Shown piece after piece: positions 28,335 to 43,453 of a stretch of 64,000 bases of DNA. The notes beneath the pieces were generated by a model. That model was not told the DNA's origin and ran no database searches. It saw only the letters and a program-made list of their open reading frames with translations. The translations under genes were made by a program, and so were the position numbers. Every line of letters starts with the position of its first letter. The first letter of the stretch is position 1. The DNA comes from Blastomonas sp. SL216 (lineage in GTDB: Bacteria; Pseudomonadota; Alphaproteobacteria; Sphingomonadales; Sphingomonadaceae): the NCBI GenBank assembly GCA_026625625.1, contig CP113055.1, positions 3,021,001 to 3,085,000 of the forward strand, in the 5' to 3' direction.

Positions 28335-28470
28335 CAAGCTCGCAACACACGTAAACTGAAACACCGGGCGCCTGTTTTCAACCAGTAGTTGAAATAACGT
28401 CAGCGTTTCAATTGATTGGTGAGTGTTTCGCCTTCGTGGTATAACAGGTCATTCAACGGGAGGAACACTG

Positions 28471-28713
28471 ATGAGCAGTCGGCAGCTCGACGAAATTCAG
28501 GAGCAAAAACAAGCCGAAGCGGTAGCAGCCGCACTCGCCATTTCAGTCGATGATCTCAATGCTCTGGAGTGGGATTTGTCGGCTCATGAGAGCGACGACG
28601 GGCTCCTGTATGGCTACAATGTCGAGTTTGGTGAAGGCTCCGATCCTAAGGTGCTGGCTCGAATTCCTGGCCTAGTGAACGGTTCGTGGGTTAGGATCGG
28701 CCCTGATCTATAA
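28471..28713 (+). CDS. Small orphan protein at the left end of the element
   Basis: An 80-residue acidic soluble protein, unrecognised. It begins MSSRQLDEIQEQKQAEAVAA, and its second half is beta-rich (LLYGYNVEFGEGSDPKVLAR). The ATG at 28471 has a good gggaggaac site upstream. It is followed after 11 bases by another small gene, so the pair looks like an operon of antitoxin-toxin size, but no toxin family is evident. Confidence 0.7.
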   Translation: MSSRQLDEIQEQKQAEAVAAALAISVDDLNALEWDLSAHESDDGLLYGYNVEFGEGSDPKVLARIPGLVNGSWVRIGPDL

Positions 28714-28724
28714 GGGAGGTTACC

Positions 28725-29087
28725 TTGCCAGCGTTCTTTGTCCCGATGGTCGAACCCGAGAAGCAGGAGGAGGCCTACGCTGAACTTGCTCGATTAATTG
28801 GTGCTGGTGCCCATGCGCCGGGCAGACGCATTTACTCGATGACTTGGAAGCATGACGGTGTTGAGTGGACCGCAACTGTGGGCGAAACGCTGCGCGGGAC
28901 AGAGACAAAGAAGATCGGACGAGGCAGAGCCGCGACCTACCGGGACATACCGCGCAGGACGGATGATACGGTCTTGGCGATCTACTCAGGCGTGCCTTAC
29001 ATGATCGCTCATGACAACAAGAGCCGATATTGGAACCTGCCAATCCTAGCCGGTGATCCATCTCGAGTAGAGATGTTTGATACTTAG
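28725..29087 (+). CDS. Orphan protein, TTG start
   Basis: A 120-residue protein of unknown family. The start is TTG at 28725, supported by gggaggt directly upstream and the tight 11-base gap to the preceding gene. Visible features are a helical start (VEPEKQEEAYAELARLIGAG) and then strands with SMTWKHDGVEWTATVGE and YMIAHDNKSRYWNLPILAG. The latter part recalls small phage or plasmid proteins that carry a short W/H-rich sheet. No catalytic motif was found. Confidence 0.7.
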   Translation: MPAFFVPMVEPEKQEEAYAELARLIGAGAHAPGRRIYSMTWKHDGVEWTATVGETLRGTETKKIGRGRAATYRDIPRRTDDTVLAIYSGVPYMIAHDNKSRYWNLPILAGDPSRVEMFDT

Positions 29088-29129
29088 GAAGGCGCTTGTC
29101 GGGTGCAGAACCCACTGAAATCAGTGCAT

Positions 29130-29390
29130 TTAGCTTTCATCTGGTGTCGGTGGGCCTTCGACGATAACTTCGTATCCGTTTAGATCGATGTAAACGACCA
29201 AGCCACCGGGCTCCGAAAAATCATAGATCGGCGGTTTATCCTCGGTGATCCGAACCGAGATGATTGATCCTGCGCGAAGGCCCTTTTTGTAGCTTGTAGT
29301 TTTGATGTGGACGACCGATCCGACGGGCGGCACACAATCAGCTTCCGTGGAGAAAAGCACGCTTCCGCTGAGCGCAAACTGTAACTTCAT
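29130..29390 (-). CDS. Orphan 86-residue protein
   Basis: Probably a beta-barrel-like soluble protein (MKLQFALSGSVLFSTEAD, GSVVHIKTTSYKKGLRAG, GGLVVYIDLNGYEVIVEG); no family was recognised. I chose the ATG at 29390, which follows the upstream stop by 16 bases; a longer frame to 29456 would overlap the upstream gene. It is the last gene of a minus-strand trio with the membrane-anchored and zinc-ribbon proteins. Confidence 0.65.
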   Translation of the reverse strand: MKLQFALSGSVLFSTEADCVPPVGSVVHIKTTSYKKGLRAGSIISVRITEDKPPIYDFSEPGGLVVYIDLNGYEVIVEGPPTPDES

Positions 29391-29406
29391 CTTCTCAGTC
29401 CCTTGT

Positions 29407-29853
29407 TTAAAACACGTCGTCGGTGATCGTTTTTTCACCGCCGTCAACGTCGTCATCCCACGTCAGTTTGACCGTCGCCCGCCGGGGGGATTGCATATGA
29501 ACGCGCACTTGCAGATTAATGGCTTGATGGGGCTCGAGGGATGGAAAAGGGAACTTATCCATCGTCCCGCCCACGCGAAATAAATCCTCACCATCCAAAA
29601 CCTCGAAGCGGATGTTTCGAGCCACCCCCTTGCCACGATTGTAAATCCGATACTGATAGGCGGATTTGCCGGTTTTCACGAAGTTGGCTGACAGATCGCC
29701 CTTTTTGGCTGCGACTGTTTCGCCAGTCTCCTTCTCGATCAAAAGAGCGTTTAGCCTTCGCGTAAGCTCGTCGCCCTTCCGCTGCCGCCAAAGCGTGAAG
29801 CCAGAGAGGCCAAACGCAGCGACTGCCATTACATCACTGATCGTTACTTCCAT
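29407..29853 (-). CDS. Membrane-anchored orphan protein
   Basis: A 148-residue protein with one N-terminal hydrophobic segment (residues 6-21, VAAFGLSGFTLW) followed by a basic stretch. That predicts a signal anchor with the rest in the cytoplasm or periplasm. The C-terminal half reads like an Ig/beta-sandwich (YQYRIYNRGKGVARNIRFEV, LQVRVHMQSPRRATVKLTW). No family was identified. Its start overlaps the end of the zinc-ribbon gene by 10 bases, which implies translational coupling. Confidence 0.7.
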   Translation of the reverse strand: MEVTISDVMAVAAFGLSGFTLWRQRKGDELTRRLNALLIEKETGETVAAKKGDLSANFVKTGKSAYQYRIYNRGKGVARNIRFEVLDGEDLFRVGGTMDKFPFPSLEPHQAINLQVRVHMQSPRRATVKLTWDDDVDGGEKTITDDVF

Positions 29854-30083
29854 TTTTTGAACATTTTCGAGAAGTCGGCCTTCACGTCCTTCAGCACCTC
29901 TGCCTTCAGGGCATCCACCTCGGCTTCAATGCGAGCGCCGTTCGCTTCCCGCAATTCGTCCTTCGTCATCACTCGATCACATCGGACGCAACGCACTTCC
30001 GGATCGCCATCATCGTGCTCGAAGCTCTCGCCTCCGCAGGTGGGGCATTGGTAAGTGATTGATCGATCGTAGTTGTCCTTCAT
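29844..30083 (-). CDS. Small zinc-ribbon protein
   Basis: A 79-residue protein with a clear four-cysteine zinc ribbon: CPTCGG at residues 12-17 and CVRCD about 16 residues later. A charged helical tail follows, rich in Lys and Glu (AEVDALKAEVLKDVKADF). It resembles the small ECs_2282-type putative zinc-binding proteins found on phages and islands, which is a tentative recognition. First gene of the minus-strand trio. Confidence 0.75.
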   Translation of the reverse strand: MKDNYDRSITYQCPTCGGESFEHDDGDPEVRCVRCDRVMTKDELREANGARIEAEVDALKAEVLKDVKADFSKMFKKWK

Positions 30084-30158
30084 ACGTTCTATCTCCGCTC
30101 AGCTCTTGGAACAATAACAGAACATATGGAAACTTGACTAGGCATATTCTCCGCACAT

Positions 30159-31508
30159 TTAGTGCTTGAGGGCGTGCCGGCACTCGCGAATGAGTTTATC
30201 GGGTTGGTCCGACGTGAAAACCATGTCGATAATGTCGCGCACGATGCGCGCGCGTGGCGGAATTCTCAGCTCATCGCTAGGATGGAAGAACGTCTGGTGA
30301 GCTAGTTTCATCCCCTGGACGAGTGCTTCGATATTGTGGTTCGCAACGAGGTCGAAACTGGCCGTGTCCCAAGGGTTTCTCTTAGCTGCATCGACGCAGA
30401 CATCGCCAACTGTGACCTGCCGGGAAACGGCGGTGTCAGCGGCATGGAAGCGAGGCCGATAACCAAATTCAGCCTCTCTGGTGCGAGGCAATTTCAGGAC
30501 GCCTGAACCGAGATAATCGCCCAAACCCTGCTGACTTCCGACAAGCGACGCATCGCCGACGCCTGTGCCGACCATCGACCAACCTTTCTGGTCGAGGAAA
30601 GCGCCGCAATAGACTTGGTAATTGGCCGACATCAGCGAATGGCTGGCACTGTCGAAACTGAACTGCAGGGCTGAATGGATATGACGGCGCACGGCGCGCT
30701 GCACAACCGTGTAGAGGCAGGCCAGATCGAGTTCTGACTTGCCCAGAATGTGGACCCATTGAGCATTTTCCAGCAGGCCGTCGTCGCGCAGATCGATCAG
30801 CCTTTGCAGAAGCAGGCTGAAGTCCTCGCGATGGCCAGCGGCAAAGGACCAGCCCTCGAACGCATAATGCTTTACATGCTCATACCATGCCTTGCTCTCT
30901 GCCTCGGTTCGCCCCTGAAGGACGTTGAGGAATTTGGTCGCGCCGGGTGTGCGCTCGACAACAAATTGTTGGTTGTTAAGCGATGTCTGGACCAGTGCGG
31001 CGTTGAAGTCCTCCGCCTGTCGGTTGCTGGCAGCGCCCTGTTCGATAAGGGGGCCATGGCCTTCTTTGCGAAGCCGTTCAGTATGTGTGGCGATCTGGCC
31101 GCTCTTGATGCCGCCAGTCGGAAAATCCAGCACCATCGAGAAATCGGTGTTGGCCTGCATCCATCGCATCATGCGTCGGACGGTTTCGGGACCACGATAT
31201 GTGATTTTGCCGGTCTGAACCTGATATCCGCCGCTGTCCCCCACTACGATCGAGCGGCTCCGGTCACGCGCGCTGACGATCGTGGGTGGATCGTTCTCGT
31301 GGATAGATTTGGCGGCCTGACCCGCGCTAAACAGCGCCCACGGATAGTGGAAAAGCTTGCTCTGGGGATCGAGGAAATTGAGGTCCTGCGCGGCGAATGG
31401 CAGCGGTCGGCGGAATGATCCGCCGTGGGCGAAACGGGCATAGCCAAAACTGAGCGCGGGTAGATAAATGGCGCAATTTTCGAAGCTGTTCTCGTAGGAT
31501 ACGGTCAT
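30159..31508 (-). CDS. DpdA-like transglycosylase (TGT superfamily)
   Basis: A 449-residue protein with the order of motifs of tRNA-guanine transglycosylases. DSGGYQ is at 91-96 (the general-base Asp loop) and LDFP at 127-130. NVLQG at 195-199 corresponds to the queuine enzyme's VQGG, GWSFAAG at 219-225 to its AIGG, and HILG at 253-256 to its MGVG. FSFDSAS at 283-289 holds Asp286 where the nucleophile sits, and VANHN at 388-392 matches the C-terminal His-Asn. Of the usual Cys3-His zinc site only Cys371 and His391 are obvious. Presence on a mobile island points to DpdA, which inserts preQ0-type bases into DNA, rather than a housekeeping enzyme. ATG 31508 was chosen; GTG 31514 is possible. The gene is divergent from a 501-residue orphan. 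Confidence 0.75.
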   Translation of the reverse strand: MTVSYENSFENCAIYLPALSFGYARFAHGGSFRRPLPFAAQDLNFLDPQSKLFHYPWALFSAGQAAKSIHENDPPTIVSARDRSRSIVVGDSGGYQVQTGKITYRGPETVRRMMRWMQANTDFSMVLDFPTGGIKSGQIATHTERLRKEGHGPLIEQGAASNRQAEDFNAALVQTSLNNQQFVVERTPGATKFLNVLQGRTEAESKAWYEHVKHYAFEGWSFAAGHREDFSLLLQRLIDLRDDGLLENAQWVHILGKSELDLACLYTVVQRAVRRHIHSALQFSFDSASHSLMSANYQVYCGAFLDQKGWSMVGTGVGDASLVGSQQGLGDYLGSGVLKLPRTREAEFGYRPRFHAADTAVSRQVTVGDVCVDAAKRNPWDTASFDLVANHNIEALVQGMKLAHQTFFHPSDELRIPPRARIVRDIIDMVFTSDQPDKLIRECRHALKH

Positions 31509-31556
31509 TCGCACTCACTTGATCGCGCGCATGGTGAGCGCCTCAGTTACTTTCTC

Positions 31557-31581
31557 GAAATCTTTGGGGCCTAAAGATTTC
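31557..31581. promoter_or_regulatory. Inverted repeat in the divergent DpdA-like/orphan promoter
   Basis: Perfect 9-base arms gaaatcttt and aaagatttc around ggggcct, placed midway in the 97-base divergent gap. Its core (tttgggg-cc-aaa) resembles the motif repeated at 35138-35151 and 41729-41742. Likely an operator coupling both transcription units. Confidence 0.6.
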
Positions 31582-31605
31582 CAAACCTTTAGCCCGGAGT
31601 TCACC

Positions 31606-33111
31606 ATGTCATCAGCCGCCCCCGCGATCAGCAACAGCGAGACGGCGGACAACGCGAATGGAGAGTTATTCAGGCAGATAAAGGCGCTCGCTGGAGAATT
31701 TGAAAAACGGGACATCAACGCAAAGGACGCTCTCTATGCTGCCTTGGAAGCATTATTTGCGTTCGTGATGAACCTTGAAACCGAAGCCGAGCGACGGCAA
31801 TTTATCCAAGTGCAGGGCGGCAACTGGGGTAAGGTCGCTCGGGACAATCCCTTTCAACCCTTCGTCAAGCTCGCCTTCGACGGTGACGGCATAAGCGATA
31901 CCTCGCGCAGCCAATATGCTTCGGTTCTACGATATGCCGAGTTCGCCCGCGACAAAGCCATGCCGCTGGCTGACTGGTTGCGAACCTCGGGCGGCATCGA
32001 TGGGCTTTATAAGGACGCTATCGACTTTTTCCCAAAGCCGCACAAGCACATCGAGCAGGCAAAACTCGAAGCGGCGGTAAGATCGATCAAAGAGCGACAA
32101 TTGAGCGAAAAGTTCGATATCCAGACCGCCGATGTCGCGGAGGGTTACGTTATGGCGCTCCTGCACGTCGATGCGAAGGGCAACGCGCATGTCGTAGAAT
32201 ATACGGAGCGTGATCAGGCCAAGCTGGATGGTCTGTTTGAGAAACTCGCCAAGGCAGAAGTGAAGAAGGCAGTGGAAGCTGAGAAGCCGCTATTCGCGCT
32301 GTGCCGCGCAATCCGCCTGCTCACCAGCATCGTTCCGGCGGGTAAATCAAACACGGATCGGCTCATCACCTTGTCGCGGCAGATCGATGAGGATGGCGGC
32401 GTTGCTGTCATGGTTCGAGCCATCTCTACCGCCTATGAAGGACCGCTTGGCGAGGTGTTACTCGGCGATATGATCGATTGGGTGCCTGCCGATGGTTTGT
32501 TGGCACTTGGACAATCCGACGCTGTGCGCTTCTGTGAAGCTTTCACCTTGAGCGGGGGATGGGCGTTTGATGGGCGCATGTTGGCTCATGATGCTGCAAC
32601 CGTTGCAGACATCATTTTGCTCGACAGCATCCCCGCCGTCCCGAAGGGCAAATCCTATTTCAAGCGTCGGGCTGACTTTCAGCAGATCGCTCCCATCATC
32701 GTAGAGTGTGACGGCGCAGTTGGATTTCAGGGCCAGTGTCGGCGCAATGCCAAGGGTAAGGCATATCGTGGCGTCCTTACGCTTGATTGGACGGGGCAGC
32801 ATCTGCGCTACCAGCCATATGCGGCAGGCGGTGCCAGTCACGATATTTTCGGATTGAACATTGATCCAAAGTTTGGAGATGACCGTATGTTCGGTTGTGA
32901 CATGCTCGTCGGCCTGTGTGCTATTGCTGATGAACTTCAATCCGACCTGACAGGGTGGCTGGTGAGCACGCCGGAAGAAGACAACTGCGCGATGCTGATC
33001 GACCATGTGGCGGGCAAAGATCGGATCAACATTGTGATGCCGCTCGTGAAAACGGCAAACGGACATACCACACAGACAAACGTGGCTTTGCCCACTCCCG
33101 CGAAAGTTTGA
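31606..33111 (+). CDS. Orphan 501-residue protein divergent from the DpdA-like gene
   Basis: A large soluble protein without a recognised domain. The N-terminal 90 residues are helical and acidic. A helix-rich middle follows (SQYASVLRYAEFARDKAMPLADWL), recalling phage or plasmid replication-associated proteins, then a Lys/Glu-rich helix (LEKLAKAEVKKAVEAEKPL). The C-terminal third is beta-rich with paired short motifs CDGAVGFQGQCRR and TLDWTGQHLRYQPYAAGG. ATG 31606 has cggag 7 bases upstream; a longer frame to 31519 would cross the operator. It is followed after 5 bases by the next gene. Confidence 0.75.
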   Translation: MSSAAPAISNSETADNANGELFRQIKALAGEFEKRDINAKDALYAALEALFAFVMNLETEAERRQFIQVQGGNWGKVARDNPFQPFVKLAFDGDGISDTSRSQYASVLRYAEFARDKAMPLADWLRTSGGIDGLYKDAIDFFPKPHKHIEQAKLEAAVRSIKERQLSEKFDIQTADVAEGYVMALLHVDAKGNAHVVEYTERDQAKLDGLFEKLAKAEVKKAVEAEKPLFALCRAIRLLTSIVPAGKSNTDRLITLSRQIDEDGGVAVMVRAISTAYEGPLGEVLLGDMIDWVPADGLLALGQSDAVRFCEAFTLSGGWAFDGRMLAHDAATVADIILLDSIPAVPKGKSYFKRRADFQQIAPIIVECDGAVGFQGQCRRNAKGKAYRGVLTLDWTGQHLRYQPYAAGGASHDIFGLNIDPKFGDDRMFGCDMLVGLCAIADELQSDLTGWLVSTPEEDNCAMLIDHVAGKDRINIVMPLVKTANGHTTQTNVALPTPAKV

Positions 33112-33116
33112 TAGCC

Positions 33117-33836
33117 ATGAAGCATTCGTCTTCAACGAATGAATTGCCTCTAGAATGGGGCAGCTTCCTCGCCGCACTGAAAAGCTATATCGATGATATG
33201 AAGCCAAAGATCGACGAAATATATGACTATCCATTTTTCACGCCCGATGATTTTGCATGGGAGCGCGGCACACAGGCTCAGAAAAATGTAGCCCTGCGAA
33301 AGCACTATAACCTTAAATGGCTTGCCGCTAGCGAACAGGATTGCCTCGCCAGCAAGGAAGCTATTACGCGCCAATATATAGTCAATTTTGGCGGTATCAG
33401 GAAAAACTCGGACGAGAGAATTAGCCGCTACGCGCAGGCTTCGGACGAGGAATTGGCCCACGGGAAGCTCGCCGGTGTAGCGTCATGGTCAAAGGTATTG
33501 TCAATTCGCGATCCCGCGGCTTATGCGATCTACGACGCACGGGTGGCATTTTCGCTTAATGCTCTACAGCTGCAAAGGCTTGGACATGTAGGCGTATGGT
33601 TCCCGCTCCTTCCCACTCAGAACGCTACATTAAAGCGGGTTCAGCGGCCATTTGCCAACATCAAGCCCAAGTTGGAACATCGCATAAAGTCTAAGTTTGC
33701 TTATCGTCGCTACATGGAGGCGTTAAGCCACGCGGTCGGTAACGGCGCTCCCGATGACGGTGAGATGATCTTGTTTGCCGTGGCACCGAAACTTGCTCGA
33801 GATTGGGCAAGCGCCAATATCCCCGCAAAAGCGTAA
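33117..33836 (+). CDS. Orphan protein, possible OGG-fold glycosylase relative
   Basis: A 239-residue soluble protein five bases behind the 501-residue orphan and surely co-transcribed. The segment GVASWSKVLSIRDPAAYAIY and the following DARVAFSLNALQL look like the S-K-x-L...P..Y.IYD.RV signature of OGG-fold (8-oxoguanine glycosylase-like) proteins seen in defence islands. This is a tentative match by memory. A helix-hairpin-helix is not obvious. If correct, the pair would combine a base-inserting and a base-recognising enzyme, divergently transcribed. Confidence 0.7.
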   Translation: MKHSSSTNELPLEWGSFLAALKSYIDDMKPKIDEIYDYPFFTPDDFAWERGTQAQKNVALRKHYNLKWLAASEQDCLASKEAITRQYIVNFGGIRKNSDERISRYAQASDEELAHGKLAGVASWSKVLSIRDPAAYAIYDARVAFSLNALQLQRLGHVGVWFPLLPTQNATLKRVQRPFANIKPKLEHRIKSKFAYRRYMEALSHAVGNGAPDDGEMILFAVAPKLARDWASANIPAKA

Positions 33837-33884
33837 CGATCAGCGATCTTGCAGAGTTTGCAGCCTGCCCGATGAGCATTAGGA

Positions 33885-34424
33885 TCAGGCAGGTGCAATG
33901 ATGCGATAAACACTGGTCCTGCTTACGTTGAGTTGTCGCGCAATGGCACTGGGGGAAAATCCTTCACCGTTGAGGCGATGAATCGTCTCGCGGTCAATCG
34001 ACGCAGAGCGTCCTCGATATGCGCCTCTTGATTTAGCCTTCTCAATACCGTCGCGTTGGCGCTCTCGGCGCAGATCGTTCTCGAACTCGGCGACAGCTCC
34101 GAGTATAGCGAGGGTCAATTTCCCTGTGCTGGTCGCCGTGTCGATGGACTGGCGCAAGCAATGAAATGCGACGCCCCGCGCAGTCAGCTTTTCCAACATG
34201 GCATAAAGATCGGTGAGGGACCGCGCGAAGCGATCCAGGCGTGAAACGACCAGCGTGTCACCATCCCGCATGAACTCCATCATTTCAGTCAGCCCGGCGC
34301 GGGAGGTGTTGGTGCCGGTTGCTTTGTCGGTGAAGATGCGTTCGCAGCCATGCGCGTTGAGCTCGTCCAGCTGGACGTCAAGGTTCTGGTCAGTTGTGGA
34401 TACACGCGCATAGCCGACGATCAT
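33885..34424 (-). CDS. Small serine recombinase (resolvase/invertase)
   Basis: A 179-residue Tn3-resolvase/Hin-type enzyme. The catalytic region is GYARVSTTDQNLDVQLDEL, with Ser at about residue 8, plus RLDRFARS and EFENDLRRERQRDGI on the E-helix. A C-terminal helix-turn-helix follows (NGEGFSPSAIARQLNVSRTS). ATG 34424 follows a strong aggaggcag site. No transposase accompanies it and no invertible segment was found next to it, so it may resolve element dimers or be a relic of an earlier transposon. Confidence 0.92.
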   Translation of the reverse strand: MIVGYARVSTTDQNLDVQLDELNAHGCERIFTDKATGTNTSRAGLTEMMEFMRDGDTLVVSRLDRFARSLTDLYAMLEKLTARGVAFHCLRQSIDTATSTGKLTLAILGAVAEFENDLRRERQRDGIEKAKSRGAYRGRSASIDRETIHRLNGEGFSPSAIARQLNVSRTSVYRIIAPA

Positions 34425-34615
34425 GCTGCCTCCTGTAGCAATAGGGTCTTTGACCCGCATCGTCTGTTGTCACATTTGCAAGAGAGCAACCTTATTGTGA
34501 CAGAATTTCAGGGCGTTTGTGCTGTCGCGCATGGGTAAACCCATAAAGTGTGCGGGCGGGGCCGCGCCTTCCCTGATATATTATCAGTTAACCCGATTTT
34601 GCTATTTGTCGCGTC

Positions 34616-35119
34616 ATGAACGATATGCCCCGCGATCTACACGTCAGCGAAAGCTTAACGCGAGAGCAATGGCTGGAACGCGCGCATGTGTTTCGCAGCA
34701 AATTGATCGAACGGTGCGCGCAGGTTGAGCGGTGGGCGACGAAGGCGGCCAATTCAATCCTGCCACCTGCAACCGGGAAGTCACGACCCGCGATGGTTCT
34801 GCTGGGACATAAAATTGAAGAGGTGCGTGATCTTGCACGCAAACACCCCGACCGCTTTGGCAACGCCGTCAAAGTGATCGAGCGGCTCAATCAATTCCAG
34901 CCTTATGCTGAACTTCGGAGCGAACTGGCTCATGCGACAACGGAAGTTGTCATCCTCGAAAATGGCGAAGCGCAATTGCAGTTCAATAACGCCGGGCTGT
35001 GCCACCAGCTTATCGAGCGCAGGATTGTGCTGACCGGCGAAGCAGCGAGGCAAATAGCCAAAGATTTGGCGGACCTGACCAATCAGATACAGCAGCTAAG
35101 CACGAAGCCCAGCTCTTAG
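34616..35119 (+). CDS. Orphan protein with HEPN-type R-x4-H motif
   Basis: A 167-residue all-helical protein. LRSELAHAT at 100-108 gives R101-x4-H106, the active-site signature of HEPN ribonucleases, in a helix followed by a short strand pair. Many HEPN proteins on islands are toxins or RNases in defence systems, often paired with an MNT nucleotidyltransferase, which is absent here. The motif is short and could be chance. ATG 34616. Confidence 0.65.
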   Translation: MNDMPRDLHVSESLTREQWLERAHVFRSKLIERCAQVERWATKAANSILPPATGKSRPAMVLLGHKIEEVRDLARKHPDRFGNAVKVIERLNQFQPYAELRSELAHATTEVVILENGEAQLQFNNAGLCHQLIERRIVLTGEAARQIAKDLADLTNQIQQLSTKPSS

Positions 35120-35137
35120 TCCGACCGGTTGGTCATT

Positions 35138-35151
35138 TTTTGGGGACCAAA
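35138..35151. repeat. Repeated motif copy 1 (ttttggggaccaaa)
   Basis: Fourteen bases identical, in inverted orientation, to 41729-41742, with further A/T similarity on both sides, and close to the core of the operator at 31557-31581. It lies between the convergent ends of the HEPN-motif and DUF6626-like genes. Confidence 0.6.
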
Positions 35152-35161
35152 GTTTTTACGG

Positions 35162-35428
35162 TCAGAGGCAGCGGTCAAATGCCGCGATCATGGCCCGCTT
35201 TGCAAGGGCCGCAGCGTCGTCGGCATCCTCCGGCAATCCGGCTGCCCTAGAAATATCGGTCAGACGTAGAGCGGTCTTCACCAAAGAGCGCAAGCTGGGA
35301 CGCGCTCCAGAACAGCGAAGATAGTCATAATAGCGCGGACTATGGCCGAGATATTCCGTCGAGAATATTGCGTGGTTGTGTGCTTGTCCTGTATTGTGAA
35401 GAAATACAAAAACGTCGTCGAGGATCAT
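35162..35428 (-). CDS. DUF6626-like small protein
   Basis: An 88-residue protein beginning MILDDVFVFLHNTGQAHNHA and continuing FSTEYLGHSPRYYDYLRCSG. That pattern is typical of DUF6626, short helical proteins on rhizobial and sphingomonad islands with no known function. ATG 35428 has tggaggcgc just upstream; an ATG-like start at 35446 is less well placed. Confidence 0.65.
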   Translation of the reverse strand: MILDDVFVFLHNTGQAHNHAIFSTEYLGHSPRYYDYLRCSGARPSLRSLVKTALRLTDISRAAGLPEDADDAAALAKRAMIAAFDRCL

Positions 35429-35551
35429 ACTGCGCGCCTCCATCAAGTGCGGGAACGCTTGTATTTATCCTCAGATCGACCGCCCCGGATAAATAGAAAA
35501 ATACGAGGCCGCTAACGAGAGAGCCGAAACAATCGGCCGGAAGGAAACTGT

Positions 35552-36004
35552 ATGATACCTACGATAACCGGAACACCGGATACTGAGGCGCGCTATCGGG
35601 CGGGCCTCATCTCAACGATGACAGATTTTGCCCCGACGCTATTTGTCACATTCGTTTTCAATCGAGCCATCACTATCAGCAAGGCAGAGGGGGACCTGAC
35701 GAAGTTTCGCCGCTGGGTGTATCGCAGCGCCACGGGCAAGAGGCGCGGCCCCGGCGGTGAGATGCCGTATATGGCTGCCGTCGAACATGAGGGCACCAAC
35801 CTCCATATACACGCCCTTTTCAATGTGCCGTCCGACCTGATCCCACGCTTCGAACAGCATGGTCCACGGCTCTGGCAGAAGATTATGAAGAGCGGCAATC
35901 TCGACATTCAGGCCGTATCCGACGTGACCGGCGTCGCGCATTACATCACCAAAGAGCTGACCACCGGCACCAGCCACCAGCTCCTTCTATCCCCCACCTC
36001 TTAA
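35552..36004 (+). CDS. HUH Rep-like endonuclease, short
   Basis: A 150-residue protein with the layout of rolling-circle Rep proteins. An FVTFVFNR strand (motif 1) at 31-38 comes first. MAAVEHEGTNLHIHALFNV then contains H85-I-H87 (the HUH metal site), and VAHYITKEL follows with Tyr131 as candidate nucleophile. It is shorter than plasmid Reps and has no helicase. Such Rep-like proteins on islands replicate or mobilise ssDNA, or are remnants of inoviral or plasmid replicons. A hairpin lies 62 bases downstream. Start ATG with aaggaa upstream. Confidence 0.7.
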   Translation: MIPTITGTPDTEARYRAGLISTMTDFAPTLFVTFVFNRAITISKAEGDLTKFRRWVYRSATGKRRGPGGEMPYMAAVEHEGTNLHIHALFNVPSDLIPRFEQHGPRLWQKIMKSGNLDIQAVSDVTGVAHYITKELTTGTSHQLLLSPTS

Positions 36005-36350
36005 ACTCGCCCGCTCTCCCCTTGGCCGTGCTGGGGGACAACGGATCGTGGCCACCGCGAATATGTTCACTGCATCGTCGTTCAGATGGTGCAGTGAATA
36101 GTATTGGAAGAGTAGATAGATCGACACACCATCAGCCACACAGGCAGATGAAGAACCACAGACACATTATACGAGACTGGTAACAACCAAACCAGACCCT
36201 CACGATGCTGATACGAAGCATGGAAAGGGGTATATCTGTGGTTACGGCGAATGAATTAATTTCCTGATATTTCTGGTAATTAACGCCAATCTTCGGTCGT
36301 CCTTTTGGACGACGACGTTATCGCTTCGCCTTGTCCGAAACAGCAAGGAG
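36005..36350. other. Gene-free stretch after the Rep-like gene
   Basis: About 346 bases with no plausible ORF. It contains a hairpin (36066-36098) and then an A+T-rich, ca/ga-rich run (36100-36200). It could hold a replication or nick site for the Rep-like protein and the promoter of the DUF6641 operon. Confidence 0.5.
36066..36098. repeat. Hairpin downstream of the HUH Rep-like gene
   Basis: Perfect 9-base arms ttcactgca/tgcagtgaa around a 15-base loop. The position, just after a HUH-nuclease gene, fits a double-strand origin or nick-site hairpin, but it could also be a terminator without a T-run. Confidence 0.55.
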
Positions 36351-36356
36351 ATGCTC

Positions 36357-36815
36357 ATGTCGATCCTCAAGTCCCTCAAACTTGCCGCTGCCACACCGGC
36401 AAATCCCGGTGCGTCCGAACATTCCTTCCGCACCAAGCTGCTGCGCTACCTCGAAGAGCAGCGGGCATTGGCGGAGGCGGAAATCGCAGGAACGCCGTTT
36501 CAGGCAACCAAGAAGGTCACGCGCACCAACGAGGCGGGCGAAAAAGTCCGCGTTGAAGCAGCGCGACAGATCCGCAAGGGCTGGTTCAAGGACGCCGGTG
36601 GCAAGCTGTTTTTCCAGCTTCGCTACGGCAGCAAGCCGCTGGAATTTGCCAAGGGCATGAACGCTGTATCCGTTCAGGATATCAGTGAACTGCCGGTCAT
36701 CATCGGCTCCATCATTGATGCCATCAACGCAGGGGAGCTTGATCCGCAACTGACGGCGGCCATCGCGGAGCGCAAAGCCAACTTTAAGCCCAAGGCAAAG
36801 AAGGCAGCAGCCTGA
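36357..36815 (+). CDS. DUF6641 family protein
   Basis: A 152-residue protein starting MSILKSLKLAAATPANPG, with LLRYLEEQRALAEAEIAG and a central RKGWFKDAGGKLFFQLRYGS. This matches the layout of DUF6641, a plasmid and island protein family of unknown function. The tail is Lys/Ala-rich. ATG 36357 has aaggag six bases upstream; ATG 36351 would abut the site. It is one base from the DUF3768 gene, in the same operon. Confidence 0.78.
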   Translation: MSILKSLKLAAATPANPGASEHSFRTKLLRYLEEQRALAEAEIAGTPFQATKKVTRTNEAGEKVRVEAARQIRKGWFKDAGGKLFFQLRYGSKPLEFAKGMNAVSVQDISELPVIIGSIIDAINAGELDPQLTAAIAERKANFKPKAKKAAA

Positions 36816-36816
36816 T

Positions 36817-37152
36817 ATGGCGGATATGGTGAGGCGGGCAGCGATTGCCCGCCTCAACGACCGCCTACGCACCACGGGTCTCGGCGGCTCGATATTCATG
36901 ACCGCCGGTATCGCGGCATTGCCAGAGGCAGTGCGAAATGCAGCCATCTTGGCCGTGCGCCAGTTCTCCGCATTCACCCAGGACAATGACCCGCATGGCG
37001 AACATGATTGCGCGGTGCTGACGGTGCAGGATCAGCGGGTCATCTGGAAGATCGACTACTATCCGCGCGATGATACCGGGAGTGATCCTGACCCAGCCGA
37101 TCCGGCGACCACGAAGCGCGTCCTAACGATCATGCTGGCGGAGGAATACTGA
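36817..37152 (+). CDS. DUF3768 family protein
   Basis: A 111-residue protein of DUF3768, common on alphaproteobacterial plasmids and islands and of unknown role. The signature NDPHGEHDCAVLTVQDQRVIW is present as F-x-x-x-NDPHGEHDxG-like, followed by KIDYYPRD. It is two bases from the preceding stop and two from the next small gene. Confidence 0.85.
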   Translation: MADMVRRAAIARLNDRLRTTGLGGSIFMTAGIAALPEAVRNAAILAVRQFSAFTQDNDPHGEHDCAVLTVQDQRVIWKIDYYPRDDTGSDPDPADPATTKRVLTIMLAEEY

Positions 37153-37154
37153 CC

Positions 37155-37334
37155 ATGTGGCGCTACCAGCTCATCGATTTATCGGAACAGCATATCCGGC
37201 AACTTCGCCTGCTCATCAAGCTCAACCGTGCAGAAGCCTACGTCATCGTCAGAACCGATAAGCCTTGGCCACCGGAGATACTGCTCCATCCGCGTCAGCA
37301 TGACGCCAAGATTGCGCGTGAGGCCATCAACTGA
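37155..37334 (+). CDS. Small protein of the DUF6641-DUF3768 operon
   Basis: A 59-residue frame beginning MWRYQLIDLSEQHIRQLRLL and ending HDAKIAREAIN. It starts two bases after the DUF3768 stop and has the same codon character. Its 3' end overlaps the convergent NotI-like gene by 8 bases. The function is unknown. The tight spacing and the full use of the gap support a real gene. Confidence 0.65.
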   Translation: MWRYQLIDLSEQHIRQLRLLIKLNRAEAYVIVRTDKPWPPEILLHPRQHDAKIAREAIN

Positions 37335-38307
37335 GTTCTTCGCTGTGCTCTACAGTCATATCCTGACCGATTGCGGATTTGCCCAAGCGCAAAACCTTTT
37401 TTCGAGCTTGAGCTGTTTTTTCTAACAAGAAATTATCGATTTGGCCCTGAAACGCTTCTTGGCTCAAAGGTATTGCTGCGGTTAGCGCCTCGATGGAACT
37501 TTCAAGCGTGGTAGCAATCGTGTCTGCCAACTTCAACTTGCCGGTCGTCTCATCATATTCCACGACGAACCAAACAATGTCGCAGTTTGAAAGATGTTTG
37601 ACGGTCACAAAGGAGCCAAGCGACGATCGGAAAGGTGTGTCGATGACCACAGACATTTTTTTCCCCCATCGCCGCAATGTTGGAATTTTTGTTTGAAGTT
37701 GCGGCATCAGCCTTTTTGGGCCTGACGATCGGTAATCAGGCCTCCGGTTTGCATCCGGGAAGATATGTTCAGATGGGTCTTCATATTGCTTGATGTGTCC
37801 TCCCATACCTTCGCCTGAGAAATACACTGCTTGAAGCTCTAACGCGCACCACCGGGAACTGTCTGCTGGATCGATTAGGATGCTATCGATGCGACCAACA
37901 GCCTCACCTTCCTTTTCCTCGATCTCGTCCAAGCCCACAGCAGACGTGAGGAACTGCACTTCTTTCAGAACAATTGGTGTTTCAACGTTCAGAATTTGGG
38001 TGCCGACGATTTCGAAGATGAAGTTATCCTCCCAAAAACGGGAAGGGCATAATGTGACAAGCGGCCCATTGTGCAAGACGGTCCCGTTGCCTTGCAAAGT
38101 TCGCTTTTGGACTGTGCAGATACCGCCTTTTTTGTTGCAGGTGGCTCCCGGCTGTGCAGCTTGTCGGAACGGGCAAGGCAACCCCGAGAGCTTGGCGGAC
38201 CCCATCGATGCGAGAGCTTTAAGTTCATCCGCTGTGTAATCGTTTATGCGCCGACCATACCACTCTGCTATGCCGTAACGGCTACGTTCTTTTCCTGCCG
38301 TCGCCAC
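37327..38307 (-). CDS. NotI-family type II restriction endonuclease
   Basis: A 326-residue enzyme resembling NotI, whose fold carries a cysteine-bound iron and a PD-(D/E)xK-type site. Cys45, Cys57, Cys64 and Cys87 occur in the family spacing (CPFR, CNKKGGIC, LVTLCPSRFW). The catalytic run is GRIDSILID with Asp141, then LELQ with Glu157 and Gln159, the E-x-Q variant seen in NotI. GTG start at 38307, with aggggc upstream. It lies 79 bases behind the cytosine methyltransferase gene. Recognition of an 8-base GC-only site like NotI's is an inference. Confidence 0.82.
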   Translation of the reverse strand: MATAGKERSRYGIAEWYGRRINDYTADELKALASMGSAKLSGLPCPFRQAAQPGATCNKKGGICTVQKRTLQGNGTVLHNGPLVTLCPSRFWEDNFIFEIVGTQILNVETPIVLKEVQFLTSAVGLDEIEEKEGEAVGRIDSILIDPADSSRWCALELQAVYFSGEGMGGHIKQYEDPSEHIFPDANRRPDYRSSGPKRLMPQLQTKIPTLRRWGKKMSVVIDTPFRSSLGSFVTVKHLSNCDIVWFVVEYDETTGKLKLADTIATTLESSIEALTAAIPLSQEAFQGQIDNFLLEKTAQARKKVLRLGKSAIGQDMTVEHSEELS

Positions 38308-38386
38308 TCAAATTTGCCCCTAAGTTATCCACTCCAGGGACAAACTACACGCTAATTTGAGCGAGGAAAGGGGTTAGTCGTGGCGG

Positions 38387-39544
38387 CTAGCAGGCCACCG
38401 CAAGAGAAGGGCGAAATCCATCACCCGCCTCGGTGCGCTCCGACGCATCTATGAGTGTTTCCGCAACTCTCTTTCCGAGAATTGGCGGGACAGCATTTCC
38501 GACTTGAACATACTGTTCGGTCCGACTGCCCTTGAACACGAATTGATCCGGGAATGATTGCAATCTTGCTGCCTCCCGAACGGTTATCGAACGATCCTGC
38601 GTTGGATGAATATAAGCTCCCCAATGGACATCGCATTTGGTCAAAATTGTGCATGCCAAATCGGTGGGACGAGGACGTCCATAACGCTTGGTATGATCGC
38701 TACGTTTTGCTCTTTTCATGCCTTCAGGCAAAAGGTGGACTGGTATGTCGCGCCACGATCCCCCCTGCGGAATGTGCTGCATCCGCAGCATATTCGTCTG
38801 TGACAACTTCGATGCTGAGTGATTATGAACTAACTCCGCACTGCCCCGCAGTTCACGTTGATATTCATTAACAGCGCCAGTGGCATAAGGCAGCAGCTCG
38901 GCGGCTTCGCCATTTGCTAGAACTGGCAGGTCCGAGATCGCATCCCAGATTGTGACAAACTTTTCTCGATCTGAACCATGTGTTGCATCGGGAAACAAAA
39001 TTGGCGCGTCGGTTCTGGTTGCGATAAAGAAAACTCGCCGCCGCTCCTGTGGCACACCGTATTCTTCAGCCTTCAGAATACGTTTTTTCACCCGATACCC
39101 CAATGTCCCCATACCGCGCTCGATCTCATCAACGATTTGCCCGCCTGCGATCGAGGTGATGCCCGTCACGTTCTCCATGACTAACCACTTGGGCCTTAAG
39201 CCATCTACGATACGGAGATATTCGCGGAAGAGACCCGCGCGCGGATCATCCACGCCCCGCTGATGATTATATACCGAGTAACCTTGGCATGGTGGGCCTC
39301 CAACTAAAACGTCAAGTTCACCCTTCTTAAGCCCTGCTGCCTTCAGCAAAGCTTGCGTGCTTACTTTTTGTATCGGTCCTCCGAGAAACTTGGCTTCGTG
39401 ATGAGTTGAAGAAAACGTTGCCCCTGAAGGTTCGTCATAGTCTTGACCTGCAAGCACATGAAAACCGGCCTGTCGAAATCCTTCAGACAGACCACCAGCG
39501 CCGCAGAACAAGTCCACGGCTGTCAGATTAGGTCGGTTGCTCAT
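38387..39544 (-). CDS. DNA cytosine-5 methyltransferase
   Basis: A 385-residue C5 methyltransferase with the motifs in order: I DLFCGAGG (11-18), IV GGPPCQGYS with catalytic Cys86, VI MENV (123-126), VIII QERRRVFF (166-173), and IX/X (RLQSFPDQFVF, QVGNAVPP). It protects the site cut by the NotI-like nuclease next door. Its ATG overlaps the stop of the RHH gene as ATGA, so the regulator and methyltransferase are translationally coupled. Confidence 0.95.
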   Translation of the reverse strand: MSNRPNLTAVDLFCGAGGLSEGFRQAGFHVLAGQDYDEPSGATFSSTHHEAKFLGGPIQKVSTQALLKAAGLKKGELDVLVGGPPCQGYSVYNHQRGVDDPRAGLFREYLRIVDGLRPKWLVMENVTGITSIAGGQIVDEIERGMGTLGYRVKKRILKAEEYGVPQERRRVFFIATRTDAPILFPDATHGSDREKFVTIWDAISDLPVLANGEAAELLPYATGAVNEYQRELRGSAELVHNHSASKLSQTNMLRMQHIPQGGSWRDIPVHLLPEGMKRAKRSDHTKRYGRPRPTDLACTILTKCDVHWGAYIHPTQDRSITVREAARLQSFPDQFVFKGSRTEQYVQVGNAVPPILGKRVAETLIDASERTEAGDGFRPSLAVAC

Positions 39545-39744
39545 GCCATTTTCCTGCGTTCACGAGGAAGCGCAAGCGGAAGCTGTGCATCTTCGTTTCG
39601 ATATTTCATCATAAATTCAATTATTGCCTGCCGCCCAACCCAAGCCATCGACACGTTATGGCGTTCGGCTAGTGCCAGCAATTCTTGGTGTTCGGCATCG
39701 GAAAGGCCCACCGATAAGCGAGGCGGCTTTGTAGCAGATATCAT
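39541..39744 (-). CDS. Ribbon-helix-helix-type small regulator
   Basis: A 67-residue basic protein with the ribbon-helix-helix pattern: a short strand KPPRLSVGLSD, then two helices (EHQELLALAERHNVSMAWVG and RQAIIEFMMKYR). I chose the ATG at 39744, which has gaggggc upstream; the longer frame to 39876 would consume the operator. Placed first in the operon, it is likely the controller of restriction-modification timing, in the role usually taken by an XRE-type C protein. Confidence 0.75.
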   Translation of the reverse strand: MISATKPPRLSVGLSDAEHQELLALAERHNVSMAWVGRQAIIEFMMKYRNEDAQLPLALPRERRKMA

Positions 39745-39769
39745 GTCGCCCCTCTCTCGCGGCCTAATC

Positions 39770-39796
39770 TGCTGCAATGTGCAGCACGTTGCAGCA
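39770..39796. promoter_or_regulatory. Putative RHH operator upstream of the R-M operon
   Basis: A 27-base run built on tgctgca repeats: an inverted pair tgctgca/tgcagca (39770-39786) followed by a third half-site ttgcagca. It lies 26 bases before the RHH start. Tandem and inverted half-sites fit cooperative RHH binding and autoregulation. Confidence 0.6.
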
Positions 39797-40044
39797 TCAT
39801 GATGTAAACTGCTGCTGATAGCAAGCCGGGATGGGGTCTGATTTTGCATAAAGCGATCAGAACATATCAGGAACATAAACGCAATGTGTGTTTGCTAATA
39901 GGGTTGTTGTCATGTGGTCCCTGAAGGCAAGCCGTTCCTGCCCTATGAGGGTCAAGAGGGGCCTTTCTAACTTGTCGGGGGCCTGGGTTGCGAGCGGGTT
40001 GGATTGACCCTGTGAGATGCTGATAGGAGCTTCGTGAGGGCGCG
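39797..40044. other. Rest of the intergenic stretch before the R-M operon
   Basis: No gene is seen. A further gctgctgatagcaag half-site follows the operator. The remainder, between the R-M promoter and the exonuclease stop, carries no recognisable structure. Confidence 0.4.
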
Positions 40045-41445
40045 CTAGCAGGACGCGCTGAGAATTCTTGTTACTTGCGCCCGATCAGCGAGATATTTAA
40101 CAACGGCATCGAGAATAGCCGCTTCGTCGCCATTACCTTGTTCCATCCGCGCCACTGCTTCGGCTTGAGCATCGGCAATGGTCGTCCATGCGGTTTTCTC
40201 ATAGCCGTCACCTGCCAGACGCGCGGCTATCTTGGCAGCAATCTTTGCGCGAATGTTCTCCGGCAGCAGATCAGGGCGGTGTTCATAAATCAGGCGACGG
40301 CCCAGTGCGATAAGCCGAACGTCGCCAAACCCTTCAACGATTGCGGGTCGATCTTCCCAAGCGGCAAGGTGAAACGCTGCCATCCGGTTCTCATCGGCGC
40401 GCCCGACGAAACCAGAGTAGATTTGCTCTTCGACAAATTCCGATGCGGGCCGGTCCTGCTTGGCGGACAGGCGAATTAACCGCGCACAGAATTCTGTATC
40501 GGCCTGTATCCTATGTGCGCGCTCCAACAGGTCGCCAGCAGCATCACCACCGAAATGCTCATATTCGGACAATGCTTGCAGGGTCGGCGCGGCATTTGTG
40601 CGAATACGCCGGACGGGTTTTGGTGAGCGTGTAAGCCACGCGGCCAACTCTTCATCAGTCATGGCGCGAAGCTGGTCAATGTCGATAGCGAGGTTCAGAG
40701 CAAGCACGGTGCCAGCGTTGCCGGGTTCGTGACCTATCTTGGTCAGCGCGAATTGGTAGGGAAGATTATAGAAGCTTTCCGTGAGGATGAAGCACGGCTC
40801 CGCATTCAGAAGCGTTGCCACGGAAGCCTTGTCCGATAGATGAACGGCATCAGCCCATAGCTCAGGCGCGTTGTCACGGATCAGCCGAGCAACATGAATT
40901 GTTGCTTCTACATCGGCCAGAGCATCATGAGCGTTCAGGTGATTGAAGCCGTTTTCCGGTGCTAATCGGTCCAGCCTGAATGTGGGTTTCCCCTTGTCAC
41001 CGACCGGCACGATGATGGCGTCCGGCACCAAGACCGACGCGGCTTGCGCGATCTTTAGAATATCGATCCGGCAATTGCCGCCGGTATTCGTCAGATATGG
41101 CGAATGTAGCGACTGGTATAATGCCTGACGCAGCAAGTGCTCGTCAAACCCAAGGGTGTTCCAGCCAGTGAAGATGCTCGGCGACCATGCCGCCAACTTC
41201 GCCCGGATTTCGCACATCATTTCATAATGGCTGGGTAGGGCAGGGTCGGTAATCTGCTCCATCCTGATCCGCGTGACGCATAACGCACCGGGTGATGGCA
41301 CGATGTGCGGCATCAGGCGGCATCGGATTTCAAAGCGGTCAATTTCGTTTAGGTCATCATCGGTGCAGATAGCGGCAAACTGAAGAATTTGATCGAAACT
41401 GGTGTTCGTGCCGGTCGTTTCCGTATCATAGAAAACAAACCCCAT
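40045..41445 (-). CDS. ExoI-like DEDDh exonuclease
   Basis: A 466-residue protein. The N-terminal DEDDh domain shows YDTETTGTNTSFDQILQFAA (D-x-E), WNTLGFDEHLLRQALY and, later, HDALADVEATIHVARLI with the catalytic His-Asp. The order and spacing follow exodeoxyribonuclease I (SbcB), including the SH3-like and C-terminal helical parts with WLTRSPKPVRRIRTN. It would degrade single-stranded DNA 3' to 5'. ATG 41445 starts one residue before the fold; a 5' extension to 41466 is less likely. It follows a 65-residue gene by 17 bases. Confidence 0.88.
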   Translation of the reverse strand: MGFVFYDTETTGTNTSFDQILQFAAICTDDDLNEIDRFEIRCRLMPHIVPSPGALCVTRIRMEQITDPALPSHYEMMCEIRAKLAAWSPSIFTGWNTLGFDEHLLRQALYQSLHSPYLTNTGGNCRIDILKIAQAASVLVPDAIIVPVGDKGKPTFRLDRLAPENGFNHLNAHDALADVEATIHVARLIRDNAPELWADAVHLSDKASVATLLNAEPCFILTESFYNLPYQFALTKIGHEPGNAGTVLALNLAIDIDQLRAMTDEELAAWLTRSPKPVRRIRTNAAPTLQALSEYEHFGGDAAGDLLERAHRIQADTEFCARLIRLSAKQDRPASEFVEEQIYSGFVGRADENRMAAFHLAAWEDRPAIVEGFGDVRLIALGRRLIYEHRPDLLPENIRAKIAAKIAARLAGDGYEKTAWTTIADAQAEAVARMEQGNGDEAAILDAVVKYLADRAQVTRILSASC

Positions 41446-41462
41446 TGATCGCCCCGCTTGTC

Positions 41463-41660
41463 TCAAATTCCTGACGAAATTAACGCCGCCAGTAAATCAC
41501 CGTGCCCGACGAACCTGCCGTCCCGATCACGTGTTTCACCTCGCTCAATATCATACCAGCCAACCAGCCTGCCATTTTTGTCGCGGCCAGTGTTTCTTCC
41601 TCCGGCGCGGTCAGACCAACCCAACAAAAGACCATTTCTGTCTCGAAACACCTGTCGCAT
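41463..41660 (-). CDS. Small repeat protein ahead of the exonuclease
   Basis: A 65-residue protein built from three hairpin-like repeats of the form R-D-x-x-G-R/L-x-x-G-W/H-x-D: FRDRNGLLLGWSD, GRDKNGRLVGWYD and TRDRDGRFVGHGD. Such Asp/Gly-rich small repeat proteins are widespread in alphaproteobacteria, without known function. A good aggaggcaa site precedes ATG 41660. Co-transcribed with the exonuclease gene. Confidence 0.75.
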   Translation of the reverse strand: MRQVFRDRNGLLLGWSDRAGGRNTGRDKNGRLVGWYDIERGETRDRDGRFVGHGDLLAALISSGI

Positions 41661-41728
41661 CGTTTTGCCTCCTAAGTTGAGGCCGTTCGATCAAGCGTCT
41701 TAGGCGCTAAGCGTCAACCTTCGAAAAG

Positions 41729-41742
41729 TTTGGTCCCCAAAA
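41729..41742. repeat. Repeated motif copy 2 (tttggtccccaaaa)
   Basis: Reverse complement of the motif at 35138-35151, with the flanking A-run also shared. It lies 69 bases upstream of the 65-residue gene, in the presumed promoter of the exonuclease operon. Confidence 0.6.
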
Positions 41743-41815
41743 GACTTATGGATAGACCCGCTTCGAAGAGGGCAAGAGTAAAGAGCGCAGACCGAAAATA
41801 CAGACTACAATTCAT

Positions 41816-43432
41816 TCAAGAGAGCACATATGCACCCTCAAGCATCCGACCTTCCTCATCGAACAGCCACCAGCTTTCATCGTCAGGTTCGATCCTGAAC
41901 AACCCTGTTGGCGTGATAGCAATACGTTTGATAAGCCGCCGAAGCGTCATGTTGGCCCGACCCCGCGCATAAATGCGAACTTCGTCGTTCTCACTTGTCA
42001 GGTCCGCACGTAGTCGTTCCACCAATTCGACATCGTCCTCGCTCGCTGGTTTGGATGTCTCGATGGCTAAGGCTTTCTGCGCCGCTCCGATCTCTTCGAC
42101 CTGTTCCTCGATCTTGGCTTCGAGCGCGCCGATGCGTTGGACGATCGCCTTCGGCGGGGAGGGCGCATTTACCTCGCGACCTTCTATTATTCCAATCAGG
42201 TTATCCAAGGCTGCTTGGTCAGCGTCCTTGAGCCTGACCATTTCCGCTATGCGTTGCCGGAGTTCGTGCCCGGCTGAATTGCTACCGCGCCGATCGACAA
42301 GCTGTGGCAGGAGTTCGTCGAGAACGGTCGCCTCCACGACATCATAGTTTAGGACGGTTTTGTTGTCGCAAGCCATTTTTCTGCGCGCACGGTCGCAAAG
42401 TAAGCGACGATAGGTTTTTCGGCGATATTTCACCACCTCGCCGTTGACCTTATTATAACTCTGAGCGGTGTCGGTGGTGTGGCGGAAATGAGCACCACCG
42501 CCACACTGATCACAAAATACCATTTGCGATAGAAGATTGCGATTGCCGTGGGTCTTCGTTGTTTTCTGGTTGCCCTTACGCATAGCGAGCGCAGCTTGAG
42601 CCCGGTTCCATTTTTCAGTGGGGATCGCCTGCGGCCAAAAGTTGGGGGACAGGGTTTTGCCGTCCGTTGTGACATATTCACCAAGCACGGTGCGTTTGGT
42701 GAGCAGACGATAGATATAGCTGTAGAACCAGCCGTTGTTGCCGCGCTTTTGTGCAGGAGGCGTCCAACTTGGCTCCTCACGATCGTGCAGGATGGTCACT
42801 ATGCGGTGGATGCCAACGCCGTCGATATATAAATCGTAGATGTCATTGAGAACTTTCGCGCGATGCTTGTTTAGCACCATTTCGCCATCGACACGGTCGA
42901 TCCAAAGCGGAGTGTTGGGGATCGGAGCAGTCTGAGTGCCTTCAGCAATTGCGGCGAACCGCGCCTCCCATGTCGCAGTCGTTCGATCACTTTTCTTTTT
43001 GCTCTCTTGGTGTGCTTGCTGGGCAGAGATTATGAGCCTGAAAACATCGAGGAGTTCTCCGCTCTCTTCGCTCCTGTAGATCTGACCGTCGTGATAGGTC
43101 GCTACGTTAACGCCGTTCTCGTTGAGCGCCCACATCAACTGCGCGGCAGCCTTGGCCCCTTGGCGGCTCAAGCGGTCGATGTTTTCTACGACCAGTGTTT
43201 TGCCATGATGGAAACCGTTTTTTGCCTCCAACTCGAACTCGTGAAGCGAGGAACCTTCGAGCCGGTTTGCACCGTGGAAGGCGCTGCGCCCTTCGTCGAT
43301 GATTGTTTTCTCTACTGCCCAGCCCTGAGTGGCCGCGAACTCCAACCCCAGCTTTTTCTGTCGGTCTAAGGAATAACCTTTGCTCTGCTCTGCACTAGAA
43401 AACCGGGCGTAAATGATAGCAATCTGAGACAT
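41816..43432 (-). CDS. Large serine recombinase (integrase of the element)
   Basis: A 538-residue phage-type integrase. The resolvase domain (1-150) carries the catalytic Ser12 in YARFSSAEQ and NIDRLSRQG. The recombinase domain (about 160-285) is next, then a zinc-ribbon domain with Cys307, Cys310, Cys346 and Cys355. A coiled coil at about 430-485 is the usual directionality control. The ATG at 43432 is only 55 bases from the right junction, as expected for an integrase next to attP. No recombination directionality factor was recognised; one of the small genes may serve. Confidence 0.96.
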   Translation of the reverse strand: MSQIAIIYARFSSAEQSKGYSLDRQKKLGLEFAATQGWAVEKTIIDEGRSAFHGANRLEGSSLHEFELEAKNGFHHGKTLVVENIDRLSRQGAKAAAQLMWALNENGVNVATYHDGQIYRSEESGELLDVFRLIISAQQAHQESKKKSDRTTATWEARFAAIAEGTQTAPIPNTPLWIDRVDGEMVLNKHRAKVLNDIYDLYIDGVGIHRIVTILHDREEPSWTPPAQKRGNNGWFYSYIYRLLTKRTVLGEYVTTDGKTLSPNFWPQAIPTEKWNRAQAALAMRKGNQKTTKTHGNRNLLSQMVFCDQCGGGAHFRHTTDTAQSYNKVNGEVVKYRRKTYRRLLCDRARRKMACDNKTVLNYDVVEATVLDELLPQLVDRRGSNSAGHELRQRIAEMVRLKDADQAALDNLIGIIEGREVNAPSPPKAIVQRIGALEAKIEEQVEEIGAAQKALAIETSKPASEDDVELVERLRADLTSENDEVRIYARGRANMTLRRLIKRIAITPTGLFRIEPDDESWWLFDEEGRMLEGAYVLS

Positions 43433-43453
43433 GACGCTTGGTAACTCAGCAAT

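Follow-up and report, generated by a model that had tools for sequence, protein, structure and literature searches.

A DpdA-like transglycosylase and a candidate clamp-like partner on an element inserted in comM of Blastomonas sp. SL216

The question raised by this locus is whether a transglycosylase gene carried on a mobile element, divergent from two genes of no recognised family, belongs to a system for modifying DNA, and with which partners. The locus lies in a stretch of 64,000 nucleotides of Blastomonas sp. SL216 (contig CP113055.1, positions 3,021,001 to 3,085,000), here called the window; coordinates are those of the window unless a locus is named, and handles beginning with L and G denote compared loci and genomes. 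Three open reading frames (ORFs) described in an initial annotation were confirmed in position, strand and length: a DpdA-like TGT-fold transglycosylase of 449 aa (30159..31508, minus strand, ATG at 31508), a 501-aa partner termed ORF501 (31606..33111, plus strand, ATG at 31606) and a 239-aa protein (33117..33836, plus strand). By a modest balance of probability we read the locus as an element, inserted in comM, that carries a DpdA-like DNA-modification module tethered by a clamp.

The identity of the 449-aa enzyme was approached by sequence and by predicted structure. No match was obtained at E 1 in Pfam (including the TGT model PF01702), NCBIfam, PADLOC or PHROGs; a single-sequence search of the PDB gave nothing of note (best E 0.18), and a 31-sequence profile placed a designed protein first in the PDB (E 0.62), followed by queuine tRNA-ribosyltransferases (E 1.4). 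An alignment of 27 sequences (the window enzyme, 9 further bacterial and 17 viral relatives) was used both for residue conservation and for an AlphaFold2 (AF2) model, which reached a predicted local distance difference test score (pLDDT) of 89.6 and a predicted template modelling score of 0.91. The top four PDB fold matches of this model were all of the TGT family, namely archaeosine TGT 1iq8 (E 3.4e-5), TGT 6fso (E 2.0e-4), DpdA 7ui4 (E 2.3e-4) and QTRT1/2 9hn7 (E 1.1e-3), and the fifth was unrelated (E 0.016). The ordered TGT motifs that had been claimed, with Asp91 and Asp286, were borne out: D91, S92, G94, Q96, D128 and D286 are invariant in the alignment, and we take D91, D128, D286 and the DSGG-Q positions to be the equivalents of the known TGT catalytic residues. 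A family profile and two canonical TGTs aligned at E 2.4e-7, their motif blocks coinciding. The canonical tRNA TGT carries a CxCxxC-H zinc site; the CxCxxC motif, present in both canonical TGTs compared, was not seen by eye in the 449-aa sequence. On its predicted structure the enzyme is thus assigned a TGT fold and a place in the TGT superfamily.

The fold alone cannot separate a DNA from an RNA substrate, and tRNA TGTs take the first two places among the structural matches, so that the element might carry a second transglycosylase for tRNA or another RNA. This is very improbable. The host genome already has a separate, ordinary tRNA tgt (PF01702, E 6.1e-155), and the enzyme is kin to phage enzymes that adjoin clamp-like and polymerase genes (below). 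It also resembles DpdA2 of Vibrio phage nt-1. The available part of one report (PMC6884629) describes phage DpdA and DpdA2, gives the nt-1 protein the name DpdA2 and records dPreQ0 in phage DNA, that of nt-1 included. A fold search of the enzyme model against viral models found R9TGF0, a 464-aa protein of nt-1, at E 1.2e-8; its phage and length are those of the gene at L109:19913-21307 (YP_008125322), and on that ground we take it for DpdA2. With nt-1 DpdA2 and phage DpdA the enzyme shares the TGT fold, the DSGG-Q and Asp motifs and, in two phage relatives, closeness to preQ0 genes; it differs in that the family profile links it to nt-1 DpdA2 at profile level only (E 1.6e-5). A search of the nt-1 and 9g phage genomes with the family profile found nothing, and the sequence link to known DpdA is therefore remote.

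Relatives of the enzyme are encoded on at least 594 viral contig stretches, and the best 80 of these, together with three named phages, formed a viral set of 83 loci that are related to each other. In 75 of the 83 a clamp-like gene lies upstream of the enzyme gene and in the same orientation, within 1.4 kb in 72 and at 3-4 kb in L024, L026 and L035. Three of these clamp-like proteins were scanned, all of which matched phrog_12062 (function unknown) and one of which matched phrog_223, 'DNA polymerase processivity factor', at E 6.7e-5; another viral clamp-like protein is labelled PCNA in its own record. A cluster of T4-type DNA polymerases covers 67 viral loci. Genes of the preQ0 pathway are annotated near the enzyme relatives in Vibrio phage 2.275.O and in a PA5oct-like phage, and the flanks of the 83 loci hold FolE in 36, QueD in 4 and QueE in 2.

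T4 polymerase binds the sliding clamp gp45 through its C-terminus, and a comparable peptide was seen at the ends of both the viral polymerases and the viral enzymes. Sixty-seven polymerase ends were selected by a short conserved string close to the C-terminus, and [STNQKDGAE][LF]F occurs within the final 12 residues of 66 of them. Among the enzymes, [SNDGAE]LF occurs in the last 70 aa of 65/83 and, at 80% clustering, of 25/38, against a mean of 5.8 and a maximum of 15 in shuffled tails and 21/227 in body stretches; in the last 60 aa it occurs in 58/83 (24/38 after clustering). A stricter motif was present in the last 60 aa of 49/67 enzymes (shuffled mean 6.8, maximum 15). The closest pair is that of Vibrio phage 2.275.O, in which a DLF-x-W peptide ends both polymerase and enzyme. 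The phage relatives appear to be tethered to the phage sliding clamp by a polymerase-like C-terminal tail.

For the bacterial side, 13 TGT loci were compared (the window, L004, L014, L104, L105, L106 and L121-L127), and a neighbour of the ORF501 family was linked by sequence in 10 of them. The link runs through the N-domain in the window, L014, L121, L122, L123, L124, L126 and L127, and in L104 and L105 through a C-terminus that resembles the viral clamp-like profile and, weakly, L121/L122. L004 has a neighbour of 560 aa that resembles the partner in size and place only, and no partner was seen in L106, where the TGT is truncated, or in L125, which begins at the edge of a contig. Eight loci (L014, L104, L105, L121, L122, L124, L126, L127) have the partner immediately upstream of the TGT gene in the same orientation; it is divergent in the window and convergent in L004, and the N-domain protein and the TGT of L123 are separated by a clamp-loader-like ATPase (phrog_168, E 9.8e-33). 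ORF501 matched a 286-aa protein of genome G096 by phmmer at E 1.3e-6, and an N-domain hidden Markov model (HMM) built without ORF501 and the G096 protein recovered ORF501 from 912 ORFs at E 0.0025, which ties it to the other partners. In G096 the ORF501-like protein is accompanied by a loader-like ATPase (phrog_168, E 5.8e-24), DUF6641 and DUF6626 (L019, 4654-7773). One genome, G1055, carries TGT genes of the enzyme family at three separate contig places (L122, L125, L127).

The C-terminal regions of the partners were compared with a profile of the viral clamp-like protein, each E-value for a partner being that of a single comparison. The C-terminus of L104 alone matched at E 9e-5, the best of 60 shuffles of it giving 0.0098. 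Seven partner C-termini together gave E 2.1e-5, and L104, L105, L121 and L122 gave E 1.3e-6, the best of the subsets tried; other subsets gave 3.7e-4 and 9.2e-4, and the N-terminal halves 0.03 or worse. The C-termini of some bacterial partners thus resemble the viral clamp-like protein in sequence. We infer from these relatives that the C-terminal half of ORF501 may be sliding-clamp-like; ORF501 itself gave no clamp match while L104 and the four-partner subset did, so that a clamp role in the window depends on its relatives. A fuller mechanism, in which a clamp borne by the element, sometimes with its own loader, loads the DpdA-like enzyme at the fork and marks the element's new DNA with 7-deazaguanine, the phage relatives being tethered to the clamp by their tail, is put forward tentatively.

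Several results weigh against a clamp-tethered module. The AF2 model of ORF501 has a mean pLDDT of 42 and is confident only over about residues 40-140, an N-terminal helical domain, and its fold search gave no match below E 0.17. Its C-terminal half scored E 0.47 against the viral clamp-like profile and 0.063 against the C-termini of the other partners. Taken alone, the C-termini of L105 (0.0027), L121 (0.027) and L122 (0.028) matched that profile weakly, and those of L127 (0.19), L004 (0.31), L126 (0.39) and L124 (0.53) did not match; the partners in L014 and L123 have no clamp half. The genome of G096 holds no TGT of the enzyme family, which is evidence against strict coupling of TGT and partner. 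On the viral side, no clamp-like gene was found in the flank of 8/83 loci (L001, L020, L021, L022, L023, L027, L089, L092), the upstream flank being short in L089 and L092; in L001, L020 and L021 the tail is present. Two viral clamp-like proteins gave no Pfam match and one no PDB match. The motif is lacking from the last 60 aa in 14/38 viral clusters: no tail was seen by eye in L022, L023, L024, L026, L027 and L035, the same loci that have no near clamp gene, and the other eight carry, by eye, TLF, NFF and similar variants or no such peptide. The tail motifs were chosen after the tails had been seen, among viral loci that are related, and the window enzyme lacks them.

These points leave room for a different account, in which ORF501 binds DNA or acts as a regulator instead of being a clamp, and the DpdA-like enzyme marks DNA independently of replication. 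The helical N-domain is the sole part of ORF501 linked by sequence to other partners, partners made of that domain only exist in L014 and L123, and the clamp-binding tail is missing from the window enzyme, all of which would fit. It is contradicted by the likeness of the L104 C-terminus, and of the four partners together, to the viral clamp-like protein, by the loader-like ATPase in the L123 operon, and by the clamp-like genes that adjoin the viral relatives of the enzyme; we regard it as a serious, if somewhat unlikely, explanation.

Among known systems, the arrangement would work like T4 alpha-glucosyltransferase and gp45, a DNA-modifying enzyme that binds a phage sliding clamp, although the chemistry is different. 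According to the available part of the T4 study (PMC13216743), alpha-glucosyltransferase binds gp45, yet this binding does not chiefly account for the dominance of alpha-glucosylation, which calls for caution with a clamp-tethered reading. The available part of the phage DpdA account (PMC6884629) makes no link to a clamp or a polymerase-like tail. In the literature searched, sources seen in part included, no link between DpdA and a sliding clamp was found, an absence claimed no further than these searches; they likewise returned nothing for DpdA with a processivity factor or for PA5oct with tRNA-guanine transglycosylase, and PA5oct was named by none among the matches listed for queuosine, 7-deazaguanine and Wroclawvirus. 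As to the bacterial Dpd island, DpdA 7ui4 ranked third among the PDB matches of the enzyme model, and tRNA TGTs rank as high. None of dpdB, dpdC or further dpd genes was named among 10 window proteins by Pfam, NCBIfam and PADLOC, in which the presence of dpd models was left unchecked. Unlike that island, the set that recurs here consists of the TGT, the ORF501 family, DUF6641 and DUF6626. A DUF6626-like protein lies at 35162..35446 (minus strand), found with the L126 member as phmmer query (E 2.4e-4); that member itself matches PF20331 at E 7.8e-26, and such proteins occur in the window, L104, L124, L126, L127 and L019 of G096. The DUF6641-like protein at 36351..36815 (plus strand) matches PF20346 at E 7.7e-4, below the gathering score, and an HMM from the window and L127 members gave matches in 5 more loci, the family being present in the window, L104, L106, L124, L126, L127 and L019. 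The clamp-like gene, the clamp loader and the polymerase-like tail, and with them the DUF6641 and DUF6626 neighbours, are missing from the initial annotation.

That annotation had instead joined TGT, ORF501 and the 239-aa protein in one module. The pairing of a DpdA-like TGT with a new partner family stood; the third member did not, its family being found at E 0.01 in 0/12 other bacterial TGT loci, and the 239-aa protein was rejected as a module member and is probably only a neighbour. It belongs to a distant OGG-like family, and the suggested OGG fold found weak support in two of five family members, not including that of the window, which match PF21790 (best E 0.0015). Relatives were found on 8 plasmid records, and the TGT profile found nothing in the five of these eight stretches examined (L009-L013). 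Two genomes for the 239-aa protein are too few to carry meaning. The relatives in L009-L013 lie on Bacteroidota and Proteobacteria plasmids, two of the five near plasmid replication genes. A minimal anti-phage system in which the three genes mark self and attack unmarked DNA would draw on their adjacency, with ORF501 and the 239-aa gene 5 nt apart, and on restriction genes on the same element; given the absence of the 239-aa family from the other TGT loci and of a TGT from the plasmid stretches, and with none of the three genes matched by a PADLOC model, it is the least probable of the readings considered.

The claim of a shared divergent promoter with a perfect inverted repeat was upheld for the repeat, which lies between the divergent start codons (31558..31580, 8-nt arms, 7-nt spacer), is a possible operator and is overlapped by an imperfect 13-nt pair (85%) at 31568-31595. 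The promoter is unproven, since a promoter scan between the divergent starts of TGT and ORF501 gave no sigma-70-like promoter.

The distribution of the family was sampled in genomes of several ranks; these samples overlap, and some genomes, including G000, were counted more than once. With the single enzyme sequence as query, relatives were found in 3/385 genomes of the class, one of which (G157, E 7.4e-4, one internal stop) was judged a chance match. Relatives were also found in 4/398 genomes of the phylum sample, 2/200 of the order of G722, 6/296 of the window's order, 1/15 of the order of G287 and 0/1 of the order of G096, a single genome. ORF501 as query likewise gave 3/385, namely the window, G096 (E 1.9e-5) and G266 (E 6.7e-4, L018), the last a chance match antisense to a long ORF that is flagellar-looking by eye. 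By tblastn the enzyme matched 13 phage records of about 284-469 kb and one Azospirillum plasmid; tblastn of plasmids with the partner proteins gave no match, and related-locus searches with single proteins or the partner alignment confirmed none.

The mobile element and restriction genes described earlier were both recovered. The element extends over approximately 28347..43490, its ends judged by eye, and splits comM/yifB, the Mg_chelatase profile being matched at positions 1-157 on the left and 150-206 on the right. At its right end lies a large serine recombinase (41816..43432, minus strand; Pfam matches Resolvase, Recombinase and Zn_ribbon_recom), by sequence probably the integrase of the element. 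On the same element a NotI-family nuclease (E 2.1e-56) adjoins a C5-methyltransferase (37327-39544, minus strand), probably a type II restriction-modification pair. An Exonuclease I-like protein (40045-41466, minus strand) matches the PADLOC RTasSbcB model (DRT) at E 7.4e-128, and a REP_ORF2-G2P replication-associated match (35552-36004, plus strand, E 8.9e-7) is possibly the trace of a replicating element.

In the clamp-tethered module that we favour, the 449-aa enzyme, of a phage DpdA-like clade, would act on DNA and swap guanine for a 7-deazaguanine made by the host, most likely preQ0 supplied by the queC pathway; queC is present in the host genome. ORF501 would be a clamp-like scaffold tethering the enzyme to DNA, with the result that new DNA would be marked while it is copied, and the benefit may be that element or host is shielded from restriction. 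According to the available part of a further report (PMC12137116), phage DpdA mutants can evade restriction by a modification-dependent system. If this reading is true, 7-deazaguanine marking of DNA would be tied to the replication machinery, and a base-exchange enzyme would gain a route to sufficient guanines, early enough for copied DNA to be protected; it would also put a name to an unannotated partner family and to a phage tail motif, both directly testable.

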